Source: a virus. From it: 26,715 bases of DNA. Below are positions 10,541 to 26,715 of this stretch, piece by piece. Positions within the stretch are counted from its first letter, which is position 1. Each line of letters starts with the position of its first letter. The notes under the pieces were generated by a model, which saw only the letters and a program-made list of their open reading frames with translations, made no database searches and had not been told where the DNA came from. The stretch spans positions 1 to 26,715 of IMG/VR virus record IMGVR_UViG_3300042691_030820. The stretch is one strand, 5' to 3'. Both the position numbers and the translations under genes were made by a program.

Positions 10541-12493
10541 GTGACTTCTGAAGAGATGCTGGAAAAGGTTGAATCTGCTCGACGTCAGTACTACGAAACC
10601 GGTGAATCGGATCTAACCGATGATGAATACGACGCGCTGAGAGATGAACTATTGGCGCGCGGCATACATACGTCAACGTTCCAACCTACAGCTGTCGCGA
10701 ATTGGTCTATAGTTAAGCATAAGCGTCCTATGCTCGGAATGCCGCTCTGCCCTAAGTCAAGAGATGAATTTGCAAAAATGATCGACGCGGTTGGTGATAC
10801 CGGCGACATTAGCCTAAAGTACGATGGAATGGCGCTAGAATTGCAATACAGCGGAGGGTATCTAACTGCTGCTGTATTACGAGGTGATGGGGACGCTGGC
10901 GAAGATATCATTCATAACGCTACTACGCTACACGGCGTACCAAAGCTTATACCGCTTGGCGAGGAATTCGCATCACAAGATGGTATCGATTTGGCCGTGT
11001 ACGGCGAAGTCGTAATTTCGTTCAACAACCTAATCGAGTTGAATAGACTCAGAGCAATCGACGGCTTGAAACCGTACGCCAACCCGCGTAACGCGGTTGC
11101 AATGATTCGCTCAAGAAGCGCTTCAAAACACCACTTAGGGTTGTTTACGTTCAGACCATACGACGTCTATCCAAGGCCATTTTCCAATCAAGCCGAAAAC
11201 ATGGACTGGCTTGCGCGACTAACGCAAGACGCCCCTAACAAAAGGTTTAACGCCGTTACCGTCGATAACCTGTCATGGGCAGACGCATGGCGCAGGCTGG
11301 AGCGCGCAACTGAAGTCAAGCAAAACAAATTGTTTGCGTACCAACTCGACGGAATAGTGTATCGCGGAAGTAAAGGGCACTCAGTCAAACTGAAGTTTCC
11401 TGCCGAAGCCGCGATCACTACCGTTACATCCATAGTTGAACGAGTCGGTAGAACTGGAGTGATAGCGCCTGTTGTGCTGTTTGAGCCGGTGAGTTTAGGC
11501 GGCGTAACGATCACAAGGGCGTCTGCGCATAATTCAACTCTGATCGCAGAGCGTCTATCGGGCATCGGCGTTGGAGCTAAAATTTTGGTGTCTAGAAGAG
11601 GTGATGTGATACCTCATGTCGAGATGGTGATTACCGCCGCAGAGGTTCAATGGGCACCTACTGGACCGTGTCCGTCGTGCGGCGCACCTATCGAACAGGA
11701 TGGGTCAGTTCGGCGCTGTTCAGCTGATCCGTCTGATTGTCCAAGTACTACGCTAGGATTGCTATTGAAATTTACGCGTGAAGTAGGTATCGACGGTGTC
11801 GGGCCGGGAGTAATGTCTGGCATTGTAGGATCGCGATTGGCAGAAACGCCAGCCGAACTATTCATTCTAACGGAAGAACATCTGGCGGCTGCTGTTTTGC
11901 CGGACGGGCGTAAACTAGGAGAAACCACCGCTAGCAAGATCGTGGCGTCCATTTTCAAGGCGTCGCACATGACGTGGGGAACGCTACTGTCTTCTGTAGG
12001 CATCAGAGGATGCGCTCGTTCGGTAATGGAGGCCGTAGCCGCAGAGTTTCCCGATGCTGAGTCGCTGCAATCAGCGACTGTGAGTGAGTTGTCCAAAATC
12101 CATGGAGTAGGTATCGAACGCGCAGAGGCCATACGCACTTTTATCGATACCAGATGGACGATCGTCGAAGACCTGTTGACAGTCGTTAGGCTTAAAAAGG
12201 AGAACAAAGGCGGTGCTCTAGCCGGCATGGTCATTTGCATCACACTTGGACTGAACTCAGGATCACGTCCTGAAGTAGAGGCCAAAATAAAAGCGCACGG
12301 CGGTATCGTAAAGTCTAGCGTCACTAAGCAGGTTACGCACCTTGTCTGCAACTACCCGAATGAATCTACAGAAAAGTTGCAAAAAGCGCGGGAACTCGGA
12401 ATTACCATAATCGACGAGTCTGTACTCCTGTCGTTGATGCCACCTTCGGCTATGGAGGACGACGATGTCATCGATCAATCCATGGAGTTCTGA
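10541..12493 (+). CDS. ligA: NAD-dependent DNA ligase (LigA type)
   Basis: 650 residues; GTG start at 10541 after GGGGG (10531-10535). An ATG at 10529 in the same frame is closed by TAA at once. Domain Ia keeps the NMN-contact pattern: Y17 and DDEYD at 27-31, equivalent to Y22, D32, Y35 and D36 of the E. coli enzyme. The adenylated lysine is K93 in KYDG, followed by LRGDGDAGED (113-122), LDGIV (269-273), KFPAEA and VGRTG (302-306). The OB fold continues to ~370. The zinc finger is C377/C380/C393/C400, helix-hairpin-helix repeats span ~405-545 and a BRCT domain ~557-632. All parts of a bacterial LigA are present, so it should seal nicks using NAD+. It is slightly shorter than the ~670-residue bacterial enzymes. 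It overlaps the next gene by 29 nt. Confidence 0.95.
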   Translation: MTSEEMLEKVESARRQYYETGESDLTDDEYDALRDELLARGIHTSTFQPTAVANWSIVKHKRPMLGMPLCPKSRDEFAKMIDAVGDTGDISLKYDGMALELQYSGGYLTAAVLRGDGDAGEDIIHNATTLHGVPKLIPLGEEFASQDGIDLAVYGEVVISFNNLIELNRLRAIDGLKPYANPRNAVAMIRSRSASKHHLGLFTFRPYDVYPRPFSNQAENMDWLARLTQDAPNKRFNAVTVDNLSWADAWRRLERATEVKQNKLFAYQLDGIVYRGSKGHSVKLKFPAEAAITTVTSIVERVGRTGVIAPVVLFEPVSLGGVTITRASAHNSTLIAERLSGIGVGAKILVSRRGDVIPHVEMVITAAEVQWAPTGPCPSCGAPIEQDGSVRRCSADPSDCPSTTLGLLLKFTREVGIDGVGPGVMSGIVGSRLAETPAELFILTEEHLAAAVLPDGRKLGETTASKIVASIFKASHMTWGTLLSSVGIRGCARSVMEAVAAEFPDAESLQSATVSELSKIHGVGIERAEAIRTFIDTRWTIVEDLLTVVRLKKENKGGALAGMVICITLGLNSGSRPEVEAKIKAHGGIVKSSVTKQVTHLVCNYPNESTEKLQKARELGITIIDESVLLSLMPPSAMEDDDVIDQSMEF

Positions 12494-12719
12494 ACCATAC
12501 GAACTGGTAAGCAGCAAGGCAGTCGTTCAACAAGTGTACGCTAGAGCGTATCTTGTTACTTGGCCCAATAGCCCAGGTCTTGATAACAACAAAGGAGTAC
12601 TGGTGCCGAAGGCTTTAGTTAAGCCAGGTACGCTGATACAGGAGGGCGTAGAGTTCGAATTGTGGGTACTCAGGCGGTTTCTGATCGAGAACAAAATCAA
12701 AAAAGAGGCGGCAACATGA
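12465..12719 (+). CDS. Small protein of unknown function between ligase and FEN
   Basis: 84 residues. ATG at 12465 has a clear GGAGG about 6 nt upstream, inside the ligase 3' end, so the gene overlaps ligase by 29 nt and then overlaps the next gene in ATGA (12716-12719). That double overlap and good ribosome site support a real, translationally coupled gene. The protein reads as a compact beta-rich fold (VYARAYLVTWPN, GVLVPKALVKPGT, VEFELWVLRRFLIE) with a basic C-terminal helix (ENKIKKEAAT). There are no cysteines and no membrane segment. I do not recognise a family. Its place suggests a partner in nick or flap processing, but that is only context. Confidence 0.75.
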   Translation: MSSINPWSSEPYELVSSKAVVQQVYARAYLVTWPNSPGLDNNKGVLVPKALVKPGTLIQEGVEFELWVLRRFLIENKIKKEAAT

Positions 12720-13885
12720 ACGTGGACAATCTCTTCGATCCTGATAGCAGCAAACCGTCGGCCGGAGCTCCAGTTGAGCCGTATAAGTGGCTTATCATTG
12801 ACGGAGGCGGTCTGGCAGTTACGGCTTGGGCCACTCACAAGAATCTAGATCGACCTGAGGATCGAGTCAAGGCGGCAGTGTACGTATTTGTGACATGCAT
12901 CGCCAGTCTGTCACGATTGATCTCCAATGAAGCCAAGATCATTGTGGTATGGGATGGAGCCGATAACCGTAAATGGAGGCGTGGACGGCACCCGTGGTAT
13001 AAGCATGGTCGTGGTAGCGTTATCAATAGAAATGAAGTTAGAGCTGCTATCACCAAACTGCACGAGTTGATGATGTGCATTGGAGTTGCAGAAGTTAAAG
13101 TCGACGGCAGAGAGGCCGATGACCTAGTGGCGACGATCGCTAACGAAATCGATTCTGCGATCAACGCACCAGTCTTGATTTTCTCTGACGACAAAGACTA
13201 TATCCAGTTGATCGATGCTAACATCCATCTGTGTCGCCGGTCGCTACAAGGTATAATCATGACGCCTGAGCAGTGCGAATTGATGGGAATTCCATTTGGA
13301 ATCGACTATCTACACATCAAAGCGTTGATGGGTGACCCAGGCGACAACATCCGTGGTCTTGACGGCATCGGTGAGAAAAAGGCTACCGATCTAATCAACG
13401 CACTACCTGATTTCATGGAGACCGCTCTTATGGACCCAGAATTGATCGACTGGTCGTCTGTCGGCGATAAGTTGAAGCGGGCATTTTATAGAGCAGGCCG
13501 AAATCTTGTGTGGCCTCCCGTTATGGATGACCCGGCATTTGGAGCCAAAATTGCCGCGAAACGTGGCATTAAAAAGCCTGAAGAAGTTGACGTAGACGAA
13601 GCTGCGGCGCTAAAAGCCGCGGCGCAGGTAGCTGTTAAGTGTCTGGATCTCGTGGAACTTGATCGTGCTGCAGAGCATCCATCGATAGTATTTCCTGAGA
13701 TTAACGTAGAGCGAATTCCAGTCGTTCTGCGCAGCTTGGATATGCAAGACGAAACCGATCTACTGTCGTCGCTCTATTCCATCGCTCGAATGCGGAGTAG
13801 AAATGGTGCAACACCACGTACGTCGGCTGTTAGAGCTGGTATGTCCATTCGCGAAGGAAGCATCGACGGCAGCGAGGACTTTTAA
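12716..13885 (+). CDS. 5'-3' exonuclease / flap endonuclease (FEN, Pol I N-terminal type)
   Basis: The ATG at 12716 is chosen over a longer TTG frame from 12662 because it makes a 4-nt ATGA overlap with the preceding gene and follows GAGGCGG. The 389-residue protein keeps the metal-binding acids of the T5 D15/Taq 5' nuclease family: D29 (IIDGGG), D80 (VVWDG), the DGREADDL group at 130-137, SDDKDY at 157-162, and GDPGDN at 206-211 followed by a helix-hairpin-helix (GLDGIGEKKA, 214-223). Basic residues after WDG (KWRRGRHPWYKHGR) match the helical arch that threads 5' flaps. The C-terminal ~100 residues are an extra tail with no clear motif. It likely removes RNA primers or 5' flaps, with ligase sealing the nick; no DNA polymerase lies in this window. 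Confidence 0.9.
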   Translation: MNVDNLFDPDSSKPSAGAPVEPYKWLIIDGGGLAVTAWATHKNLDRPEDRVKAAVYVFVTCIASLSRLISNEAKIIVVWDGADNRKWRRGRHPWYKHGRGSVINRNEVRAAITKLHELMMCIGVAEVKVDGREADDLVATIANEIDSAINAPVLIFSDDKDYIQLIDANIHLCRRSLQGIIMTPEQCELMGIPFGIDYLHIKALMGDPGDNIRGLDGIGEKKATDLINALPDFMETALMDPELIDWSSVGDKLKRAFYRAGRNLVWPPVMDDPAFGAKIAAKRGIKKPEEVDVDEAAALKAAAQVAVKCLDLVELDRAAEHPSIVFPEINVERIPVVLRSLDMQDETDLLSSLYSIARMRSRNGATPRTSAVRAGMSIREGSIDGSEDF

Positions 13886-13886
13886 C

Positions 13887-15362
13887 ATGCGCCCATCTGA
13901 CAACCACATCACCCGCTGCGGTTCTGCTCTAGTCATTCACGGACTTGAAGAAGAAACAATTGCGATGCTGTTCGGTCGGTACAGTCGCAGCGTAGAATCT
14001 ATCGCTGATTCTATTGACGCGATGTACACTGAAGGGCATATCAACGGAAGTGCTGTAGCGAAATCGACAGTCGATGGTAAAACCCGTCAATTCCACGAAC
14101 GAATAACTATTGGTTATGGGCACAAGTCAGTAGCCGATCACGCGTCAGTCCATTGGGCGCTGGAAGGAGTATCAGCGCTAGTAGAACGCGATTACACGTC
14201 GTCGCGACTTATTGCCGCGACCTCCAAATCTACACGATTTGTTTCGTTTAGAGATGCTGGATTCGTTACGCCTGAAAACTGGCCCGTCAATCTTCGGTCT
14301 GAGTTTGAGGCGCACTGTGAGGAGCTGCTGACGGCTTACGAAACTCTGGTACCAGTGGCAACCGAGGCCGTGCGGCAAAAAGTCCCGTATGATCCTGATT
14401 TTGGCTGGAAGTCAGAAGCCGGATGGGAATCGGCTACTAGTAAAAGGGCGCTAGACATAGTCAGAGACCTGCTACCGTGTTCAATCCGTACGTCGTTTGG
14501 CGTAACGTGTAGCGCTACGGCGTTGCGCGAAATTTTGGACAAACGTCACATTCATTCTGACGGTCAGACTCTAGAAGTTGCGCAAACGGCAAACTACATC
14601 AGAACGGCGGCGTCAAACTCTGTAGTCCCTACTCTGTTGCCGACTGCTCCACGCGAATCGCCAAGAGGTAAACGCCTCGCCGTCGCACCTTGGATAAGCG
14701 GTGGAATTTGCGCTAATGAGTACGCGGCGCATTACAACACGCTTGTTCCACCGTCTGTGAGTCTAATCAGCAAGCCGGACTGGTCGCTTGTTCAGGAAGC
14801 GTCGGGAATTCCTACTCATGAATTGGTGCATTCATGGGTTTTCGAACGCGGGCATCACATGCCGCCTAACCGATGGGCAGAGTTGCCTGACTATTGGCTC
14901 AAGCTCAAGATACCGTTCGCGATTCAGCGCGATCTTGGGCGGCATAGAATGATGACCCAATTCGAAGGATTGGTGATCCCGACAATGGGATACGGCGCGG
15001 ACCCGCTGATCAGTGACAAACGGCATCTCAGTAAAGATGCTCGATTGATACTGCTATCTAGAGCGTTTCAAGATACGCTAGCTAAGGCTGACGCGCGCAT
15101 TAGAGCTTGGTCGCATAAAGTTCCGCAAGACGCGTTGCAGTACGCTAGCCCACTCGCTGCGCATGTTCCGGTGCTGTGGAAAGTGAACGTCAGGGAGCTA
15201 GTTCACATTCTAGGTTTGCGTACTACGCCTCAAGGACACCCGACGTATAGATTTGTCGTGGCCGCCGCTGCTCGCTTGATCGGAGATGCTGATAAGACGA
15301 TTAAGCCGCTTATCGATGAAGTCACAAACTACAGTGAAGTTATAGTCGGTAGACCGGGTTAA
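13887..15362 (+). CDS. thyX: FAD-dependent thymidylate synthase (ThyX) homologue, double-domain
   Basis: ATG at 13887 lies one base after the exonuclease stop; an in-frame ATG at 13803 would overlap the exonuclease by 83 nt and has no better ribosome site. The 491-residue protein is about twice a normal ThyX (~220-250) and contains two ThyX-like halves. Half 1 has HKSVADHASVHWALEGVSA (79-97), then SSR-x7-STRF (105-118) and DLLPCSIRTSFGVTC with R220. Half 2 has RDLGRHR (348-354), SPLAAHVPVLWKVNVREL (421-438) and LRTTPQGHPTYR (444-455). ThyX makes dTMP from dUMP using FAD, NADPH and methylene-folate. Its hallmark RHR-x7-S is split here: half 1 keeps S but not RHR, half 2 keeps RHR but has L362 for S. 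The gene lies directly before the ribonucleotide reductase, so it belongs to a nucleotide-supply cassette. Confidence 0.82.
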   Translation: MRPSDNHITRCGSALVIHGLEEETIAMLFGRYSRSVESIADSIDAMYTEGHINGSAVAKSTVDGKTRQFHERITIGYGHKSVADHASVHWALEGVSALVERDYTSSRLIAATSKSTRFVSFRDAGFVTPENWPVNLRSEFEAHCEELLTAYETLVPVATEAVRQKVPYDPDFGWKSEAGWESATSKRALDIVRDLLPCSIRTSFGVTCSATALREILDKRHIHSDGQTLEVAQTANYIRTAASNSVVPTLLPTAPRESPRGKRLAVAPWISGGICANEYAAHYNTLVPPSVSLISKPDWSLVQEASGIPTHELVHSWVFERGHHMPPNRWAELPDYWLKLKIPFAIQRDLGRHRMMTQFEGLVIPTMGYGADPLISDKRHLSKDARLILLSRAFQDTLAKADARIRAWSHKVPQDALQYASPLAAHVPVLWKVNVRELVHILGLRTTPQGHPTYRFVVAAAARLIGDADKTIKPLIDEVTNYSEVIVGRPG

Positions 15363-15470
15363 TCGACAGCGTCTGACTTGTGGCTAGATGACGCCACTGG
15401 CATGCCAATGGGCAGTTGTGGTAGATTAACCTAGATTATTCACCATTGAACCGCACCTTCGGAGGCAGCA
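15363..15470 (+). promoter_or_regulatory. Spacer before ribonucleotide reductase with an 18-bp near-palindrome
   Basis: A 108-bp non-coding spacer. CCACTGGCATGCCAATGG at 15394-15411 is a palindrome with one mismatched pair (8 of 9), the size of a dimeric repressor operator. Downstream, TTGTGG at 15416-15421 and the AT-rich TAGATTAACC region could be promoter parts, but spacing to a -10 box is poor. GGAGG at 15460-15464 sets the reductase start. The spacer is too short for a cobalamin riboswitch. Confidence 0.35.
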
Positions 15471-17954
15471 GTGGCACGCAGTTTTTACTTCGTTTCGAGC
15501 TATGAAAAGAGTCTTTTTAACGGCAGGTACAAGAATCCCAGTGACGAAGTAGAACAAACGTGGGAAGATGTTTTCAAACGAGTCGCTGGTGCAGTCTCGA
15601 AACATCAAGCGGTTAACGGCGTAGATAGCGATACCATCAGCGCTCTCGAAGCTGATTTTTACGATTTGATGGCATCTGGAAATGGTGTTCCAAGTTCGCC
15701 TCAGCTGTGGAACTACGGAACAACGCGTCGATTTCCTTTCAATGGGTCATCGTGCTTTACTGGGCGCATGGGTGATACGCTAGAGGACTTTAGACAGGCC
15801 GATGCTGACGCTGAAGCCGTATACGTTTCTAGCGGAGGATTCGGAGTTCTGCTTGATACGGTGCGCCCGCGTGGATGCAAGATTCACCACTGCTCTGAAG
15901 GGTCGATGGGATCAATGTGTTTTGGTGGACCCGCTCGTCGTATAGAGGGTACTACTGGGTATATCACTGGATCCGGTAGGGCTAGAGGGGCTCTGATGAA
16001 ACAAATGGGCATCAGGCATCCAGACTGCGTCGAATTTATCGTCGCTAAACGGCCACGAGCGCTTGGTTGGCTGGATGATTGGCCGGCAAACGTCAAGGCA
16101 GTGGTCAACGGTGATTACGACAGCCTGCTCAGTTTAATTCACGCGTACTCATCTACATACGTATTTATCAAGGACTGGCCTAATCGAGCTGAAGTCGAGC
16201 TTAACGTTGGCCACGACACTCTAGAAATGGCGATTAACCACGGTATCATAGCCATAGATCACTTGGGACGCGCCGTACCTCAAGTGTATGACTGGAATAC
16301 ACTGTCGTTTAGGGCTGCCAACAGAGACTGGGATTTGCCGCTACAAAATTGTAACATGTCGATTCGTATCCCTGACGAATTCATGGTCGCGGTTGAAAAC
16401 AACTCTCCATGGGTTTTGCAGTGGTTTAGTCCAATGGCGTCAAAATTGGGTAGTAACCCGTGGACTAAGACCGATCTGCAAGGTAAAGGCCTTGTCGAAA
16501 TCGAAGACGGTCGCACTGTTAAAGTGACGGCAAGCGGTTCATACGCTGAACTAGTCGATAAGCTTGAAGCTCCGAACTACAGGTACGGTGTTGTAATAAC
16601 TACGTGGGAAGGGCTCAGGGCTAACATGAGTCCGAACAAAAATCATTGGCGAGATACTGACTACGCGCGGTTTTATCGTACCGTAGTCGAGCCGGCTATC
16701 GCTAAGTTCCACGGTCCGATTATGGCTCGACAGCTGTGGAGCCTTGTCAACGAAAACGCGTGGAACCACGCCGATCCTGGCGTCGTGTTCGAATCGACGT
16801 ACGAAAGATTTCAGCCGGTAGACTCAAGTTTGTATGGGCCGCGGCTGTCTAACCCATGTTCTGAGTACGTCAACAGCGCCGGTGGAAGCTGTAATCTCAT
16901 CAGCGTCAATTTGCGCAAGATAGCCGATAGCGTAGACACATCGGATCTTTACAAAGTTGATGGTTGGATCTCTCAAGGACTGTCAACCGTCGACGACTGG
17001 AATTCTCTTGAGCAGTCGGCTGAATTTAGGCGCTATATCGCCGACGTGGGTGTGATTGCCAAACGCTGCTTGAAGTACATCAACCACGCAATGGACTACA
17101 ACATAGCTCCAGTTGAGTACATTCACGAAATGACTAGAAACCATTTCAGAACTGTCGGCGTAGGCATCATGGGGCTCGCAGAAGCCATGATGCGATTTCA
17201 CGTTATGTACGGATCTGAGTGCGGGCGGCGGTTTGCCGCGTGTACGATGTCTGAAGTCGCCACTGCGTGCTGGGAAGAGTCGTTCAGCATGGCTAAGGCC
17301 GGTTGGGTCAAGCCGATCGGCTGGGAACAGAAGCGCATGGAGCGCATTTTTGGTGAGCGCCATAGCTTTGCCACCGACATGGGCATTGGGCAGCGCCAAG
17401 TGTCTAAATGGAAATCTATTCTAGACCGCGTGATGAAAGGCGAGTACGCGACTAATACGTGCGTGACTAGTGTCGCACCAACTGGAACGATTTCAATGAT
17501 TGCCGGGTGGGTAATGACGCGCGCGGCTAGCAACGGAACTATTGAGCATAGAAGCGTTACCAGCGGAATCGAGCCGCCGTTTTCGTGGGGCGTCAAACGC
17601 CAGGATAACTCCGGTGAAGACGCTACGTACCATGATCTGTGGTGGACTAAAGAGCACCATGGTCGACCCTGGATGGTGACGGCTATGGGAGGCGTTACGC
17701 TGGAGGGTCATGTCACCGCTCAGGCAGCCGTATGCGCGTTTACGTGCATGAGTGTGTCTAAGACGATAAACGTCCCTGAGCATGCCACTGTGGACGACGT
17801 CAAGAAGGGCTACGAATTGGCGTGGCGTCTCGGCATCCCAGGAACGAGTCTCTACCGCGATAACAGCAAGCCTATGCAAGTACTTAGCGCGCTCGAGTGC
17901 CCAAGCGGTGAGTGCGCCATCGACAAAAACGCCGACATTACGGCCGTTCCGTAA
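15471..17954 (+). CDS. nrdJ: Class II (adenosylcobalamin-dependent) ribonucleotide reductase
   Basis: GTG start at 15471 with GGAGG 6 nt upstream; 827 residues. It reduces ribonucleotides to deoxyribonucleotides using a thiyl radical made from adenosylcobalamin, with no separate radical subunit. Visible landmarks are SSPQLWN (75-81), C95 in NGSSCF (first redox cysteine), NPCSE at 461-465 (N461, thiyl C463, E465), C474 in SCNLISVNL (redox partner) and PTGTIS at 670-675. VSKTINVP (762-769) and the C-terminal shuttle pair C810/C815 in CPSGEC complete the set. All catalytic residues are present. No nrdB-like or activase gene lies nearby, as expected for class II. An N-terminal ATP cone is not evident. 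The combination with ThyX indicates a phage that makes its own DNA precursors in a host that has or imports cobalamin. Confidence 0.93.
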   Translation: MARSFYFVSSYEKSLFNGRYKNPSDEVEQTWEDVFKRVAGAVSKHQAVNGVDSDTISALEADFYDLMASGNGVPSSPQLWNYGTTRRFPFNGSSCFTGRMGDTLEDFRQADADAEAVYVSSGGFGVLLDTVRPRGCKIHHCSEGSMGSMCFGGPARRIEGTTGYITGSGRARGALMKQMGIRHPDCVEFIVAKRPRALGWLDDWPANVKAVVNGDYDSLLSLIHAYSSTYVFIKDWPNRAEVELNVGHDTLEMAINHGIIAIDHLGRAVPQVYDWNTLSFRAANRDWDLPLQNCNMSIRIPDEFMVAVENNSPWVLQWFSPMASKLGSNPWTKTDLQGKGLVEIEDGRTVKVTASGSYAELVDKLEAPNYRYGVVITTWEGLRANMSPNKNHWRDTDYARFYRTVVEPAIAKFHGPIMARQLWSLVNENAWNHADPGVVFESTYERFQPVDSSLYGPRLSNPCSEYVNSAGGSCNLISVNLRKIADSVDTSDLYKVDGWISQGLSTVDDWNSLEQSAEFRRYIADVGVIAKRCLKYINHAMDYNIAPVEYIHEMTRNHFRTVGVGIMGLAEAMMRFHVMYGSECGRRFAACTMSEVATACWEESFSMAKAGWVKPIGWEQKRMERIFGERHSFATDMGIGQRQVSKWKSILDRVMKGEYATNTCVTSVAPTGTISMIAGWVMTRAASNGTIEHRSVTSGIEPPFSWGVKRQDNSGEDATYHDLWWTKEHHGRPWMVTAMGGVTLEGHVTAQAAVCAFTCMSVSKTINVPEHATVDDVKKGYELAWRLGIPGTSLYRDNSKPMQVLSALECPSGECAIDKNADITAVP

Positions 17955-17966
17955 AAGGAGAGCGCC

Positions 17967-18626
17967 ATGACATTCGTATTTCCAGGTCGAGCTAAGTTGG
18001 TGGAAGTCCCTAGCATGCTCAAATTTGGGCTGCGTACTGATCAAGCTAGAGTTCAGGAAGACGTTCTACAGCCGTTGATTCAGGCCCATAACGCCGTGCA
18101 TCAACTAGGCGGTAAGTTTATTCTGAATCAACTGTTCAGAACGCGTAAAGATCAAGAGTACTTTTACGCTAAATACAAATCTGGCAGCGGAGCGCCAGCT
18201 CAGCGTCCAGGGTACTCTGTGCATGAATCCGGAAGAGCAATGGACGTGTCTACGTCGCAACTCAACTTTCCGGTTCCTGCAGACAAACAGATCGACGTTC
18301 TATGGGACGCGGTCAGGCAGTTCGGGTGGCGACCCGTTATCGATCGAGCCGACGAGACTCGCGTAGAACGCTGGCATTTTGACTACTGGGGGCCGTGGGA
18401 CGCTCTTAGGGCAGAGTACGGCTATAACCAAGCGGCTAGAGCGGCGGTCTTGGACGTCACAGGCGGCCAAGGCCCTGAAGAAGCGGCTCAAGCCATACAA
18501 GCTCAGTTGTGGCGTCGCGGATTTCCGTGCGGAGCTATCGATGGCGTGCTTGGCGATAAAACCAAGCGCGCTCTTGTCGCTGCTGGATTTAGCGCGGATC
18601 TAACTGATCCGACTAAACTGTACTAG
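17967..18626 (+). CDS. Endolysin: M15/VanY-type peptidase with peptidoglycan-binding domain
   Basis: ATG at 17967 with AAGGAG at 17956-17961; 219 residues. Residues ~25-145 are a D-Ala-D-Ala carboxypeptidase/L-Ala-D-Glu endopeptidase fold. LFRTRKDQEYFYAKY (56-70) leads to the zinc motif SVHESGRAMD (84-93; ligands H86 and D93) and then ERWHF (134-138; E134 catalytic, H137 third ligand). Residues ~172-208 are a PG_binding_1 domain (AIQAQLWRRGFPCGAIDGVL, GDKTKRAL). There is no signal peptide or membrane anchor, so a holin is needed for export. It cleaves peptide bridges of the cell wall at the end of infection. It is the last gene of the plus block, and its stop overlaps the stop of the convergent gene. 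Confidence 0.9.
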   Translation: MTFVFPGRAKLVEVPSMLKFGLRTDQARVQEDVLQPLIQAHNAVHQLGGKFILNQLFRTRKDQEYFYAKYKSGSGAPAQRPGYSVHESGRAMDVSTSQLNFPVPADKQIDVLWDAVRQFGWRPVIDRADETRVERWHFDYWGPWDALRAEYGYNQAARAAVLDVTGGQGPEEAAQAIQAQLWRRGFPCGAIDGVLGDKTKRALVAAGFSADLTDPTKLY

Positions 18627-20548: not shown

Positions 20549-21252
20549 TACAGACCTTCAATCGAATCGTCTAGATAAGGCGCGATCAACGGAGTCTTGG
20601 GAACAAGTCCGCTTTTCTTACGAGGAATCTCGATTTTACCTTCGTTTTTGACGCCTTGATTGTACACGGCCAGCATTTGACCGTACCGCGCATCACCATA
20701 CTGAAGTAGCGCCAAATCCTCGAATCTGGTTTCTTCAGTCTTTGTAACGTAATTAGTGGTAAGCGATATTTCAGTACTTTCTTTTGGGACCCTGGTAATG
20801 GTAATTCTTACCGGCCCTATTTGACGAACAATTCTAGACCTGATTTGATTGTTACCACCCCAGTATTCAAACGGAGCTTCTGGTATCTCCGTTATGAAAC
20901 CCTCTACGATCATAGGCCCATGGGTAAAGAGAACCATAGGTGGGCGACCGAGCGACGAGTCAAAAGCCGCCAGTTCGTTTAGGCGCTCCCACGCCGCCAA
21001 TGGATAAGCGTCTAGAATTGTAGTCGCGATGCCAATGAACTCAAAAGACACCGTGCTCAAGTCTTGACCGACAAACTTGAGCCACGCCATGGCACCCAAA
21101 ATACCGGGTTTGCGCTGCCACATTGGCGCACCCTTACTTTCCATTATCTTAGGATCGTACTGACCAGTAACGGGAAGGCTAAGCGGGTTATCGGCGTTAA
21201 CTAGAACCCATGTCGGTCCAGGCGGAAACGTGGTAGGCGTCGGTAGTCCCAT
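20548..21252 (-). CDS. LysM-type baseplate hub protein (gp53/gpX-like)
   Basis: 234 residues; start and stop are both shared in TAATG overlaps with its neighbours, so the tape measure, this gene and the gpD-like gene are translationally coupled. Residues ~44-155 form a beta-rich domain (LAAWERLNELAAFDSSLGRP, then MVLFTHGPMIVEGFITEIP) like the 'rw--L--l---~--g-~~~l~f--g~' layer of LysM-associated phage tail proteins. Residues ~168-210 are LysM-like (YVTKTEETRFEDLALLQYGD then LAVYNQ). In contractile tails this protein seals the tube-hub junction, between tape measure and gpD-like hub. The sub-family is inferred from order and the LysM motif. Confidence 0.7.
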   Translation of the reverse strand: MGLPTPTTFPPGPTWVLVNADNPLSLPVTGQYDPKIMESKGAPMWQRKPGILGAMAWLKFVGQDLSTVSFEFIGIATTILDAYPLAAWERLNELAAFDSSLGRPPMVLFTHGPMIVEGFITEIPEAPFEYWGGNNQIRSRIVRQIGPVRITITRVPKESTEISLTTNYVTKTEETRFEDLALLQYGDARYGQMLAVYNQGVKNEGKIEIPRKKSGLVPKTPLIAPYLDDSIEGL

Positions 21253-23600
21253 TAGCTTCTCCCGGCAACTTCTGCCATGTCAACGGTTCTAATACGCGTT
21301 CCGCCTTCCATGACAAACCCCATTTCTTCTGGAGTTACTGGATCGCCACCTCTACCTGAATTTCGCGCGCGCACTTCTGTTTTCGCCAAAGTATCGGCAA
21401 CCTTCTCGCCGTCTATATTCAACTGCACAGGCGTCGTAATAGTAGACGCCATGTTCACGTTCATCTCGCTATTGAAACGTTCGGTAGTAGCTAGAAATCC
21501 TTCACGAATTGTTTCTGCTGATTTCCTGGCTTTATCTGCGCCTTCACCTATCTTTGACGCCAGCAGCGAACTGAACGGCTGAATCTGCGCCGCGAAACCA
21601 TCCATAGTATCGGCAATCATTTTCATGAGTTCAACGAGTATAGCCCTGAACGGTATCGTTATCATGTCGAACATACCTGTCATGATAACTTTCAAACTGG
21701 CTACGGCCGACCCGGTACCGGTTATAAGCGCGACAAATGCCCTAGCCATTCGCATAATGTCACTAACTACGTGCTTAAACCACGGCCGCATGTACTCTAA
21801 CAAGCCAGCAAGCTTTGTAAGAACAGTGAACGCTATCTCAGCGCCCGCTCCAATCGCCGTTGCCAGTATATCGCCAACTTTGGCGCCTATCGTGGCAAAC
21901 TGCTCAAATGCAAAAATCACGCCACCGGCCGCGAATAGCGAGAAAAATTCGTTAAGCGGCCTTTTAAGCACTTCGAGAGCAAAGCTTATTTTTTGAAACG
22001 CTACGCTAAGCGCCGGACCTACACGCTCTATGATTGGCGTAAAGAACGACTTGAGAATTTGAAACCCGATAGCTATGAGAGATTTGATCATTTTGCCGAT
22101 GCGGCCAAAGGTCTCGGTTATACCTTCTCCTTTCTTTCTGAATAGCATGAACGCTACTGTTCCTGCCGCTACGCCTATAGCAATTGGAGCCAAAATTCCG
22201 GCTACGACTGATAGCCCGGTAATAAGCGTTGGTACAGTAAACTCAGCCAACGGGGCCAAAAACATGGCAAGAGTAGCGATGGTAGTTACAACTGTAGCTA
22301 TAGCCGGCGCGACTATTCCTAGAACTGTTGACATGCCGACAAACGCGGCTGCAGACCCGAAAAACACAGACTGCGCCGTCGACCCCATATTTCTGAACAT
22401 GTTAATTATTGGCTTGCCGATACTTATGGCTGTATCTTTAAGCCAAACCAAAGCGTTAATGGCGTCGTTAACGTAATTGGCCATATTTACGATAATCGGC
22501 TCCATTCCGTCTAGTTTCTCTAGCCCGACGCCGGTTGTGACAGCTCTCAGCGCCGATCCAAACTGATCGATTAGAGGCGTTATGGCGCCTAGCATGTCTT
22601 TTATGTCTAGCTTGTTCAGCATGGCAGACCCGGCCGCTTCCATAGACATTTCTACAACGTCTTGAAGCGTTGATATACGGCCGAACATAGTCTCGCCAAG
22701 AGCCGCAACCAGGTCTCTTCCTCCAGTTTTCGCTTGTAGCTGCTTCTCGATTTCTGCCATTACGGCAGCCGTATACTCTTTTCCGCCGGCCTGACCGGCA
22801 TTCTTAAACATGTCAGCTCGTAGGATTAGTCCATACGAACTTTTCAAACTGTCGAACTCGCCTACAGCGCCGCTAACCATAGCCTCAGCGACGCCTTCAA
22901 CACTGCTACCAGGCTTCAACGCAGCGATCTGTGACGCCAATTTGAACAGGCGTTCGTTCTCGTCGATGTTTTTTCCGGTTATCGTTAGAAGACGTTTTGA
23001 ACCTTCAACTATATCGCTTCTAGTGAACGGCGTTTTTGCAGAATAGTCAGTTATTCTGCCAAGCAGTTTCTCACTCTCAGCGGCGCTACCGAGAAGCGAA
23101 TCGAATGTAACTCGCGCGTTTTCTGCGTTTCCGGCTAACGTCAGTGACTCTTTTACGATATTACCGCCGAATATATTACTACCACCTCCTAGCGATTGAA
23201 GTCCTAGCATCATGACACTGGATGCAGCTAGGAAAGAAGACTGAGTCTCTTTAACAGCTCCAGTCAACTGCTTTACTTGCTTTACTGCACTACGAGTGTT
23301 TACTCGCACGGTCTTCTGCTTACCGAAGATATCACGGTACAGCAGTCGCCCTTCTTTTATAGCGTTGGTGACCGACCGCATCGACGTGCTAGCAAGCGCC
23401 ATGTTTCGCTGAAATTCAGATGGCGCTCGCTTCTCTTTCATCAGCTGCAACATTTGCGTTACGGAAACGTTACTGCTGTTAGCAGAGCTTTTGAGAATTT
23501 TCATCTCTTCAGATGTCTGCTTCATTTGAGCGCGAAATCTAGCAACGCCGACAGTAGCATCCTTGGTTCCGAAGATGAATTTGCCGATTATGCTAAACAT
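21252..23600 (-). CDS. Tail tape measure protein
   Basis: 782 residues; ATG at 23600 with GAGGCG upstream. The N-terminal ~130 residues are charged and helical, followed by SAKTPFTRSDIVEGSKRLL (187-205), the characteristic 'tPF---~l--a---L' phrase of tape measure proteins. Residues ~412-487 are strongly hydrophobic and Ala/Gly/Val-rich with several potential membrane segments, as expected for a protein that helps DNA cross the inner membrane. The rest is helical and amphipathic. It sets tail length: at roughly 0.15 nm per residue the tail would be near 115 nm, which is inference. It is directly downstream of the frameshifted assembly chaperone, the invariant phage order. Confidence 0.92.
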   Translation of the reverse strand: MFSIIGKFIFGTKDATVGVARFRAQMKQTSEEMKILKSSANSSNVSVTQMLQLMKEKRAPSEFQRNMALASTSMRSVTNAIKEGRLLYRDIFGKQKTVRVNTRSAVKQVKQLTGAVKETQSSFLAASSVMMLGLQSLGGGSNIFGGNIVKESLTLAGNAENARVTFDSLLGSAAESEKLLGRITDYSAKTPFTRSDIVEGSKRLLTITGKNIDENERLFKLASQIAALKPGSSVEGVAEAMVSGAVGEFDSLKSSYGLILRADMFKNAGQAGGKEYTAAVMAEIEKQLQAKTGGRDLVAALGETMFGRISTLQDVVEMSMEAAGSAMLNKLDIKDMLGAITPLIDQFGSALRAVTTGVGLEKLDGMEPIIVNMANYVNDAINALVWLKDTAISIGKPIINMFRNMGSTAQSVFFGSAAAFVGMSTVLGIVAPAIATVVTTIATLAMFLAPLAEFTVPTLITGLSVVAGILAPIAIGVAAGTVAFMLFRKKGEGITETFGRIGKMIKSLIAIGFQILKSFFTPIIERVGPALSVAFQKISFALEVLKRPLNEFFSLFAAGGVIFAFEQFATIGAKVGDILATAIGAGAEIAFTVLTKLAGLLEYMRPWFKHVVSDIMRMARAFVALITGTGSAVASLKVIMTGMFDMITIPFRAILVELMKMIADTMDGFAAQIQPFSSLLASKIGEGADKARKSAETIREGFLATTERFNSEMNVNMASTITTPVQLNIDGEKVADTLAKTEVRARNSGRGGDPVTPEEMGFVMEGGTRIRTVDMAEVAGRS

Positions 23601-23612
23601 CGCGGGCTCGCC

Positions 23613-24625
23613 TCACTTCTTATTAAACGCCGCTATTACATGTTTAACGTCGTTTATTAGTTTGTTGCGCCAATACTTAACGTACGTCCAGCGCTGTTTT
23701 CGTAGAGTCTCTGGGTCCATTAGGCAAAACCCAGACGACCCGAAGCCAGGGATACCGGTCATAAACATGTATGCCAGTTCCGCAAAGTCCTCCAGGTCAA
23801 TCGAAAAGAAATTGGGGCTCAGCGTAATGTCTAGAGCCCCTGCTCGAAAGGGACCACAGACACTTGCTCGCACTCCTTACAGACCAAGTCCAGGGTCGGG
23901 TGAAAGTGCGGAACAAACTCATCCAATTTGCGCACGAACCCTGCCACTACGGCCGTGGATAGCTTCATGCCTTCAGCCTTAAAGGACACGGCTCTAGGCG
24001 CCCCTTTATTTCCGTTAGATGAAAAACGCAGACAGCTGAGAGCGCGATGAATCGCCACAACTTCAGGTATGCTCCACGACTTTTCTGAAACATTTTGTCT
24101 TGCTGCGCGCCACGTAGGATCGGTAAGGAAAAACGTGCCGTTTTTCAACGATGGCGGCAGTACAGCGTCATCTACTTTATCAAGTCGAAATGTAGCATCT
24201 GGGCCAGACACCGGGGCTGGTCTAGAAAAAATGACAATGTTGCCGAACGGAACTTCTCTAAATGGAGCGTTGCAGCCTGGACATGGAACTCCCTCGCTAA
24301 GCTTTAGCGCCATACCATTGAGCTGCGCCGTCCATGCCAGCGACAGAAAAATCACATCGATATCGAGCATGCCGTGAATGAATTCTGCGCCGAGACCCTC
24401 GTCGTGAAGTTCATGACCGCCGATATTCTTAGCGACGATGTACGCTTGGAGCGCTTTCTTGCTCCACGGCAACGCGTCGCCGACTTCAGAAACACGCAAC
24501 GCGATATCTACCGTGTCAGGCATCAATTCGAAAGTATGCCCACTCGGCAGTACGCCGGCGTCGAACAGCTGCTTGAACGTCGTCTGCTGCAGTCTACCCG
24601 TCTCAACTTCAGTTTCGTCAGACAT
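23613..24625 (-). CDS. Tail assembly chaperone, -1 frameshift fusion product
   Basis: Slippage by one base at 23846-23852 joins residues 1-260 of the zero-frame protein (…VVPF) to 77 residues of the overlapping frame (RAGALDITLSPNFFSIDLED at the joint), giving a 337-residue fusion. The extension is acidic then basic (DLEDFAELAYMFMTG, later RKQRWTYVKYWRNKL) and has no good start of its own: a GTG at 23873 lacks a ribosome site. Lambda gpGT and P2 gpE' are made in the same way, and the short and long forms are needed in a set ratio. It ends 12 nt before the tape measure start. The event is predicted from the signal and gene order, not observed. Confidence 0.78.
23814..23852 (-). promoter_or_regulatory. 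Programmed -1 ribosomal frameshift signal
   Basis: On the minus strand the heptamer C CCT TTC (23846-23852) is in the correct zero frame (X XXY YYZ). A 5-nt spacer GAGCA follows, then a stem of GGGGCTC (23834-23840) pairing perfectly with GAGCCCC (23814-23820), with a 13-nt loop that carries the zero-frame TAG. Heptamer, spacing and GC-rich stem are all canonical. Confidence 0.82.
23831..24625 (-). CDS. Tail assembly chaperone, zero-frame product (T4-baseplate-like, two CxxC)
   Basis: ATG at 24625 (a TTG one codon earlier is possible) is set by GGGAGGG about 6 nt upstream; 264 residues. The protein is acidic at the N-terminus, with CPGC (C115, C118) mid-way and CKEC (C249, C252) near the end, together a possible zinc site. 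Its stop comes 12 nt after a slippery heptamer, and the usual 'fF' helix segment that follows the last CxxC in related proteins is found in the -1 frame instead. It plays the part of lambda gpG or P2 gpE: coating the tape measure before the tube polymerises. Position between tube and tape measure supports this. Similarity to the T4-baseplate (gp26-like) family is judged by eye only. Confidence 0.75.
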   Translation of the reverse strand: MSDETEVETGRLQQTTFKQLFDAGVLPSGHTFELMPDTVDIALRVSEVGDALPWSKKALQAYIVAKNIGGHELHDEGLGAEFIHGMLDIDVIFLSLAWTAQLNGMALKLSEGVPCPGCNAPFREVPFGNIVIFSRPAPVSGPDATFRLDKVDDAVLPPSLKNGTFFLTDPTWRAARQNVSEKSWSIPEVVAIHRALSCLRFSSNGNKGAPRAVSFKAEGMKLSTAVVAGFVRKLDEFVPHFHPTLDLVCKECEQVSVVPFEQGL

Positions 24626-24705: not shown

Positions 24706-25146
24706 CTACGGTCCGATGTGCTTGGCTCGCGCGTACGAAATGGTCCACTTGTTGATGGCCACTTCGGCGCTATCAAGCGACATACCTGGGGCTTCAACCA
24801 TCTTGAGAATGCAGTTCTCTAGCTCCCAAATTTCGACAGCCGTATCAGCCGCCGTCATGATGGTGATCACGCCAGTTGCCTGATGCCCGATTCCGCCGTT
24901 TTCACATAGTTCTTTCCAAGCGTGAAAATCTGCGTTTGCGGGATCATGAGCCGGCAGCGATACGACAAGATCTTGACGGCTAGCCTTACCGGTAGCGTAT
25001 CCTCTACCATCGGGGCCGTCGATGACCTCAACTTCGTCTTTGATCCCATCGACGCCGGTAGCGTTGGCTTCGACGACATGCGGTGCGAACGACACTGAAA
25101 AGTGATTCGTAACGCCGGCGCCGTCCGGAATAGTTCGAGCTCCCAT
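24706..25146 (-). CDS. Tail tube protein (gp19-like)
   Basis: 146 residues; ATG with AAAGGAGA upstream. The pattern HFSVSFAPH near the N-terminus, a central ADFHAWKELCENGG (73-86), and the C-terminal EIWELENCILKMVEAPGMSLDS then AVAINKWTISYAR-like strands are the layout of the T4 gp19/phage tail tube fold: beta barrel with a 'W-l-na-p----~~ld' loop and a closing antiparallel pair. Size fits (140-170). Hexamer rings of this protein stack to form the inner tube. It sits 31 nt after the sheath gene, in the usual order sheath, tube, chaperone. Confidence 0.85.
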   Translation of the reverse strand: MGARTIPDGAGVTNHFSVSFAPHVVEANATGVDGIKDEVEVIDGPDGRGYATGKASRQDLVVSLPAHDPANADFHAWKELCENGGIGHQATGVITIMTAADTAVEIWELENCILKMVEAPGMSLDSAEVAINKWTISYARAKHIGP

Positions 25147-25177: not shown

Positions 25178-26715
25178 TCAGCCTTCGCTGGTGAGTTGCG
25201 TCGGCGAGATGATGATCTTGAGATCTTCCAAGGCCGGCCGAGGACGGAATTCGATGCTAGCGGTAACGCGTCCCTCGAGCAAATCCTCTGGAGGATTAAG
25301 GCTTGGGGGCACCTGCACGTTTACCTGCTGCTCGAATCCAGGCTTAGTGCCGCCGAAGTCGCTGAACCAACCGTCGCGGTAGTAAACCTTCATCTTCTCA
25401 CGAAGCGACAGCTGAACGTCAGACAACCGACGAGCAGATATGCTCTTGAAGATGAACGGTCTAGTCGTGACGAACAGGTCTCTGGCAACGTGGTAGAACA
25501 CCGCGCGTTCAGTAATCGTGTACCGCTTTCCGGCTTGAGTGCGTCCGCGCGAATACATTCTGTTACCGAAGGCGTAGATCGACGATCCTTCCCACATCAA
25601 CGGCACGATTCCGTGGTCGTTGAGCAGCTTAACGGGCGGGGTCCACCGACCAATCGTGTCTGGAAGAGCCTGAACTCGCGGGCTAAACGACCCCTGCGCG
25701 TTGTTGTTAGCCGCAGCAATATGCATGCCGCGCTCAGAATCAACACCGACGTTGGCCAACCACGAGTGCAATCCAAGCGCTACACCTGAGACAGATCGAG
25801 TGACCAGCTTAGTCTTTGCAACGTTGAGAATCTTGCCGCGGCTCGGAAAGATATGCTGTACGTTGTCAGACTCTGCCTCGTTAGCGAGCATGTCTGCGAT
25901 GGCGTTTTCGCCGGGGGTGGCGGAATCTTCGATGGATGCTGCAAACTCGGCAAAGTACATCCAACCGTAGCGCTCGACAAGAGCAGCAGCGGCGCTCTTG
26001 ACAGCACTGTCAGTCACTCCGGGAGTGATGAGACGGACAAGGCCAAGATTGACGCTATTATAGCGCTTGAAGATGTGGTCAGAGAGGTCAAGCGCGATCA
26101 AATAGCGCGCCGCCGCAGGAGTCACGCCATCGTAACCTCCCCACATTGGCATGCGAGCTTCTATACGGAACGGTACACCATCAACGCCGGTATGGGTAGT
26201 AGTGTTAGTCAGTCCGATATCGGTGTTCATCGTACCGGCGCCGACAAGAAGCGTGCTCTTGGAACCGACAGAATCACGGACGCGGATGTTCAACCTACCT
26301 GGGCTCGTCGTGCTTTCAGAAAACTCGAACGCGCTAGTGGTATCGAGCGCCGTAAGAGCTGCAATGATTGCCGCAAGGCCGACGGCGTTTCCACCAAGCG
26401 TCAAAGTTATAGCCGACATGCCGTCTGGAGTAAGCGTAAGCGCTTGTCCAGCCAAAATAGTCGCAGCGGTAAGATCAGCGGTACCGTCAACGTTAGCCGG
26501 CTCAGACTCTGCAGCACCATAGTCCGTCAAGTCGAGATCAGACCTGACGGTTACGGTGTTGTAGGTGTTAGACACGATCCGCAGTCGCTGATTCGTGTTA
26601 CCGTCGTCGGACAGCGCGACAGGGTACAGAAACGCTTCGCGCCGGTACAGATCATGCGGAAGCGGATTCACTCTGATCGTTATAGTGTCACCGGCAACAC
26701 CGTAACCGTCAGGTC
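25178..26715 (-). CDS. Tail sheath protein, N-terminus cut by the window end
   Basis: A GTG at 26671 could be read as a start, but the frame stays open to the last base (PDGYGVAGDTITIRV precedes it without a stop), so the gene almost certainly continues beyond the window. About 510 residues are visible. The C-terminal ~280 residues carry the conserved sheath core: YGWMYFAEF, IFPSRGKILN, GLHSWLANVGVDSERG with HIAAANNNAQG, VPLMWEGSSIYAFGNRMYSR, and the closing VNVQVPPSLNPPEDLLEGR with ASIEFRPRPALE. The N-terminal half has beta-rich inserted domains (TVTVRSDLDL, NIRVRDSVGS). Sheath subunits contract to drive the tube through the envelope. It establishes the contractile-tail morphotype. Confidence 0.9.
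   Translation of the reverse strand, partial: PDGYGVAGDTITIRVNPLPHDLYRREAFLYPVALSDDGNTNQRLRIVSNTYNTVTVRSDLDLTDYGAAESEPANVDGTADLTAATILAGQALTLTPDGMSAITLTLGGNAVGLAAIIAALTALDTTSAFEFSESTTSPGRLNIRVRDSVGSKSTLLVGAGTMNTDIGLTNTTTHTGVDGVPFRIEARMPMWGGYDGVTPAAARYLIALDLSDHIFKRYNSVNLGLVRLITPGVTDSAVKSAAAALVERYGWMYFAEFAASIEDSATPGENAIADMLANEAESDNVQHIFPSRGKILNVAKTKLVTRSVSGVALGLHSWLANVGVDSERGMHIAAANNNAQGSFSPRVQALPDTIGRWTPPVKLLNDHGIVPLMWEGSSIYAFGNRMYSRGRTQAGKRYTITERAVFYHVARDLFVTTRPFIFKSISARRLSDVQLSLREKMKVYYRDGWFSDFGGTKPGFEQQVNVQVPPSLNPPEDLLEGRVTASIEFRPRPALEDLKIIISPTQLTSEG

Follow-up and report, generated by a model that had tools for sequence, protein, structure and literature searches.

The tail operon and the end of the chaperone gene

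The window, i.e. the whole stretch of DNA analysed here (26,715 nucleotides), is a linear IMG/VR virus fragment whose minus strand carries, in this order, the genes for the tail sheath, the tail tube, the signal-bearing chaperone and the tape measure protein. The sheath gene (25178..26671; phrog_23, 2.2e-16) is truncated by the contig end (the protein has ~920 aa in relatives). The tail tube gene (24706..25146; Phage_T4_gp19, E 2.8e-10) comes next, and the tape measure gene (21252..23600) was recognized by phrog_23574 (tail length tape measure, 8e-9) and, under the curated cut-off, by TMP_3. The chaperone frames are two overlapping ORFs placed between the tube and tape measure genes, an order which makes this the classical location of tail assembly chaperones. 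On the plus strand, the region 10541-18626 encodes an NAD-dependent DNA ligase, a 5'-3' exonuclease, a ThyX-domain protein, the large subunit of ribonucleotide reductase and a VanY-type endolysin; this block and the minus-strand tail operon converge near 19.3 kb. The ThyX protein (13803-15362; 519 aa) is about twice the usual length, with the ThyX domain in its first half and no family match for residues ~255-519.

The zero-frame ORF (23831..24625, minus strand, ATG at 24625) encodes a 264-aa protein, the putative short form of the chaperone (TAC-N, T4 gp26-like), with the motifs CPGC (residues 115-118) and CKEC (249-252). The -1 extension (23613..23852, minus strand; PFRAGALDIT...AAFNKK) ends at a TGA stop, 12 nt before the start of the tape measure gene, and constitutes the candidate TAC-C domain. 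Slippage would join the two into a fusion of 337 aa. Both lengths, as well as the two CxxC motifs, agree with those proposed in the initial annotation.

The minus-strand codons at the end of the zero frame read GTC CCT TTC GAG CAG GGG CTC TAG. They contain the slippery heptamer CCCTTTC (C_CCT_TTC, 23852-23846) in the zero-frame phase X XXY YYZ, followed by a 5-nt spacer (GAGCA, 23845-23841) and a stem-loop (23814..23840), whose arms GGGGCTC (23840-23834) and GAGCCCC (23820-23814) form seven perfect pairs around a 13-nt loop. The zero-frame stop codon TAG (23831-23833) lies within this loop. All elements of the canonical signal that had been described for the tail assembly chaperone gene (a stop inside the loop of a perfect 7-bp GC-rich hairpin, and an in-phase heptamer 5 nt upstream of the stem) were thus recovered on the minus strand.

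Such an arrangement is rarely expected by chance. In-frame XXXYYYZ heptamers (Y = A/T) occur at 8 of the 8,176 codon junctions in the main genes of the window, and 0.65% of positions have a perfect 7-bp stem 4-9 nt past them. Taken as the product of these separate rates, heptamer and stem would coincide with a probability of ~6e-6 per codon, or ~1e-4 over the ~14 codons where a shift could work. The 43-nt signal folds with -15.5 kcal/mol (z = -2.9), a value equalled by 1 of 200 shuffled sequences. When 86 nt are folded, a rival upstream pairing in which the slip site takes part is preferred over the hairpin; a ribosome sitting on the slip site would melt this competing structure.

Conservation of both reading frames in two relatives

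Searches with the sheath and chaperone proteins identified two independent relatives (L003 and L008), giving three independent loci of the lineage, including the window. The L003 sequence recurs with 100% identity in contigs of two further metagenomes (three metagenomes in total); L002, L004, L005, L006 and L007 represent the same sequence and were left out of the independent count. Comparison of the chaperone and the sheath with annotated phages (megablast and tblastn), single-protein viral scans with the chaperone and the tube, and a search of GTDB genomes with the sheath alignment produced no match.

The zero-frame proteins of the two relatives are 40% and 48% identical to that of the window (protein identities of 40-49% overall). 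In both, the heptamer occupies the same alignment column and is in phase (ATC CCT TTC in L003, ATC CCT TTT in L008), the zero-frame stop is placed 4-6 codons past it, and a homologous -1 ORF with the block KQRWTYVKYW follows. The retention of the slip site is what the initial annotation had proposed to look for in homologues. In contrast, the 'PNFF' segment which it expected after the last CxxC is not conserved, the relatives carrying PPVF and DTWK instead.

In the comparisons of the window with its relatives, pN/pS was 0.50-0.60 for the -1 ORF and 0.43-0.55 for the zero-frame ORF, and substitutions clustered at the third positions of the -1 frame (22/20/38 and 27/24/48). As judged from these substitution patterns, both ORFs are under purifying selection; the -1 ORF shows coding selection, and it does so without a conserved start of its own.

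This last feature bears on the possibility that the -1 ORF stands as a gene of its own, expressed by reinitiation or from an internal start, so that two proteins and no fusion would be made. Many annotators list such ORFs apart, and L003 has an ATG (8823) close to where the conserved part begins. However, this codon is ATT in the window and ATC in L008, all three loci have a -1 frame that runs through the heptamer without a stop, and the heptamer has kept its phase even though the residues P-F are the only constraint on it. We therefore regard a separate gene as highly improbable. In L003 a TAG 6 nt upstream of the heptamer marks the point past which the -1 frame becomes open, so that the shift must fall within ~31 nt.

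Candidate stimulators and the proposed mechanism

A counterpart of the stem is present in L003 at the same 5-nt distance from the heptamer (GGGTCTG with TAGACCC). It differs from that of the window by two two-sided changes, in pair 4 (G-C in the window, U-A in L003) and pair 7 (C-G in the window, G-U in L003). L008 has no comparable stem downstream of its slip site. The stem, whose conservation in homologues had also been put forward as a check, is thus maintained through paired changes in one relative and is missing from the other.

A GC-rich stem with a T-rich stretch after it (here the hairpin with AATTTCTTTT behind it) might also be read as a signal for transcription termination or attenuation, and not as a stimulator of frameshifting. 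Nevertheless, the 13-nt loop and the broken T run do not favour such a role, the hairpin is absent from the list produced by the terminator scan, and it is situated inside the -1 ORF, just ahead of the tape measure gene, which belongs to the same operon. Moreover, the T run after the L003 stem is weaker, and L008 lacks such a stem. This explanation is slightly less probable still than that of a separate gene. Finally, an error of sequencing or assembly, or gene decay, conceivable for any gene break and here for a contig known from one copy, can be discarded, because both relatives share the heptamer, the stop placement and the selected -1 ORF and break at the same place and in the same phase (a single continuous frame in homologues was what the initial annotation expected of an error or mutation), L003 is identical in three separately assembled contigs, and both parts are under purifying selection.

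The slip site, the stop, the conserved -1 ORF, the gene order and the selection on both frames support the originally proposed frameshift in the chaperone gene. Based on these sequence features, we consider it highly probable (roughly 94%) that a single gene gives rise to two tail assembly chaperones by programmed -1 ribosomal frameshifting. The majority of ribosomes would stop at the TAG and release the 264-residue short form. In a minority, the stem-loop 5 nt further on would impose a pause while CCT occupies the P site and TTC the A site, and the ribosome would slip back by one base (CCT to CCC, TTC to TTT); the shifted ribosomes would read on to yield the long form of 337 residues, whose C-terminal domain has ~77 residues. 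By analogy with gpG/gpGT of lambda, one would expect the short form to coat the product of the next gene, the tape measure protein, and the long form to recruit that of the preceding gene, the tail tube protein.

Besides the stem, the relatives carry upstream sequences, AAGGAGG in L003 and GGGAGG in L008, which are able to pair with the anti-Shine-Dalgarno sequence and both end exactly 10 nt before the heptamer. The same spacing is that of the stimulator of Escherichia coli dnaX. These elements may be treated as a lead concerning stimulation. In the window there is no Shine-Dalgarno-like element 10 nt upstream of the heptamer; its sole candidate, AAGGAG, is placed 20 nt upstream and was rejected as too far. 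We tentatively suggest, as a rather doubtful proposal, that the lineage slips on C_CCU_UUY, and not on the U_UUU_UUY usual in T4-like chaperones, with interchangeable stimulators: a stem with the stop in its loop in the window, a stem plus AAGGAGG in L003, and GGGAGG only in L008. If true, these loci would form a natural series showing how stimulators replace one another while the ratio of the two proteins is kept.

Relationship to the chaperones of T4-like phages

Neither the zero frame, the -1 frame nor the fusion matched any Pfam or PHROG family, including PF12322 and phrog_150. Modelled with AlphaFold2 from three sequences (pLDDT 67, pTM 0.65), the zero-frame protein found its best Foldseek match in a protein of Bacillus phage BCD7 (E 3.5e-6) and also matched a 'T4-like baseplate hub assembly protein' (E 1.5e-5), and in the PDB fold search the HK97 tail assembly chaperone appeared only at a weak, insignificant E of 4.4. 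Alignment with hhalign against 20 gp26 sequences gave a probability of 43% (pairwise E 2.4e-4) with both CxxC sites aligned. The predicted structure thus supports the view that the zero-frame protein shares its fold and two CxxC motifs with T4-like gp26 proteins, and the earlier description of the core as T4-baseplate-like holds at the level of structure, but not at that of sequence families. The -1 domain, predicted as two helices, gave no significant match in the fold search; since neither its sequence nor its fold detectably matches the gp51-type C-terminus, its putative homology to the latter is based on position.

We surveyed 19 loci of the gp26 family, all found through the zero-frame protein only. 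In 15 of them, an in-phase T_TTT_TTN heptamer is located 0-1 codons before the gp26 stop and a gp51-like -1 ORF follows (SRB7757, S-RIM8, Aeromonas 65.2, HTVC008M, Ochrobactrum OC, Stenotrophomonas YB07, Rhizobium N34, Vibrio D527, Cronobacter S13, phiM9, Aeh1, P-SSM3, C48C1, S-CAM4 and Melnitz-1). Three further loci (Vi01, BX-1 and K351) have kept the -1 ORF without a canonical heptamer, and one (50AhydR13PP) carries gp26 and gp51 as separate genes with no extension, like T4. The gp26 and gp51 proteins of T4 are paralogues (BLASTP 2e-6; both PF12322), and the end of T4 gene 26 (GAG TTC TTT GAG TTA CTA TAA) contains no slip site and is not followed by a gp51-like -1 extension.

The overlapping -1 ORFs of Vi01, BX-1 and K351 (2211-2417 in L018, 2142-2348 in L019 and 2313-2486 in L020) accompany gp26 ends with no canonical XXXYYYZ; the candidate sites there are A_ATT_TTC, C_GTT_TTT and A_CTT_TTC. 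In four records the -1 extension is listed as a gene in its own right, 'baseplate hub assembly catalyst' (gp51) (L011 4732-4869, L013 2253-2390, L016 2193-2372 and L022 2193-2372), and in the records L012, L021, L023 and L027 it has no annotation. Most such extensions could be re-annotated as frameshift products.

In 2022, Vladimirov and colleagues reportedly found that frameshifting is conserved in several T4-like groups and that T4 uses genes 26 and 51. Their paper (Vladimirov, Gautam and Davidson, Virology 2022), which deals with the tail assembly chaperones of T4-like phages, is in the reference list of the PRFect article (PMC10885494), and because the T4 gp26/gp51 connection appears to be its subject already, we considered and abandoned presenting this link as new. 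According to the PRFect article, the short and the long form are also encoded by separate genes in some T4-like phages (PMC10885494). An earlier review (2016) described tail chaperone frameshifting as widely conserved and named T4 as the exception (PMC5009743), and the role of T4 gp51 has been described as unknown (PMC3004832). The locus analysed here is the T4-like tail assembly chaperone of a diverged, so far undescribed lineage, with a different heptamer and a stem. A phage lineage without a family-level sequence match is thereby placed among the probable users of tail-chaperone frameshifting, the two halves of the chaperone can be treated in annotation as a single gene with two products, and a link to T4 gp26/gp51 is added at the level of fold. 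The survey of 19 loci fits the view that T4 swapped the frameshift for two genes.

The gpG protein of lambda is smaller and its slip site is different. The lambda gpG/gpGT system resembles that of the window in the position of the site before the tape measure gene, the -1 direction, and the presence of a short and a long chaperone (PMC5009743). In T4, the counterpart of the short form is gp26 and that of the long one gp51 (a gp26 paralogue with a C-terminal extension), but genes 26 and 51 are separate. Another close parallel is provided by the -1 chaperones of T4-like phages (e.g. S-RIM8, Aeh1, HTVC008M and phiM9), which have ~200-285 aa, two motifs that are mostly CxxC, a heptamer in the last codons, a gene adjoining that of the tape measure protein and a similar predicted fold. 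The large core with two CxxC motifs, at first considered unusual, is therefore not unusual for this group, most of whose surveyed members also have a -1 shift site at the same place. Their -1 ORFs (~55-65 aa) have the same position as, and a length similar to, that of the window. The TAC-C domain of the window has no detectable sequence relation to theirs (and no sequence-level family match), and the C_CCU_UUC of the window with a GC-rich stem differs from the U_UUU_UUN, mostly without a strong stem, of the T4-like loci surveyed.
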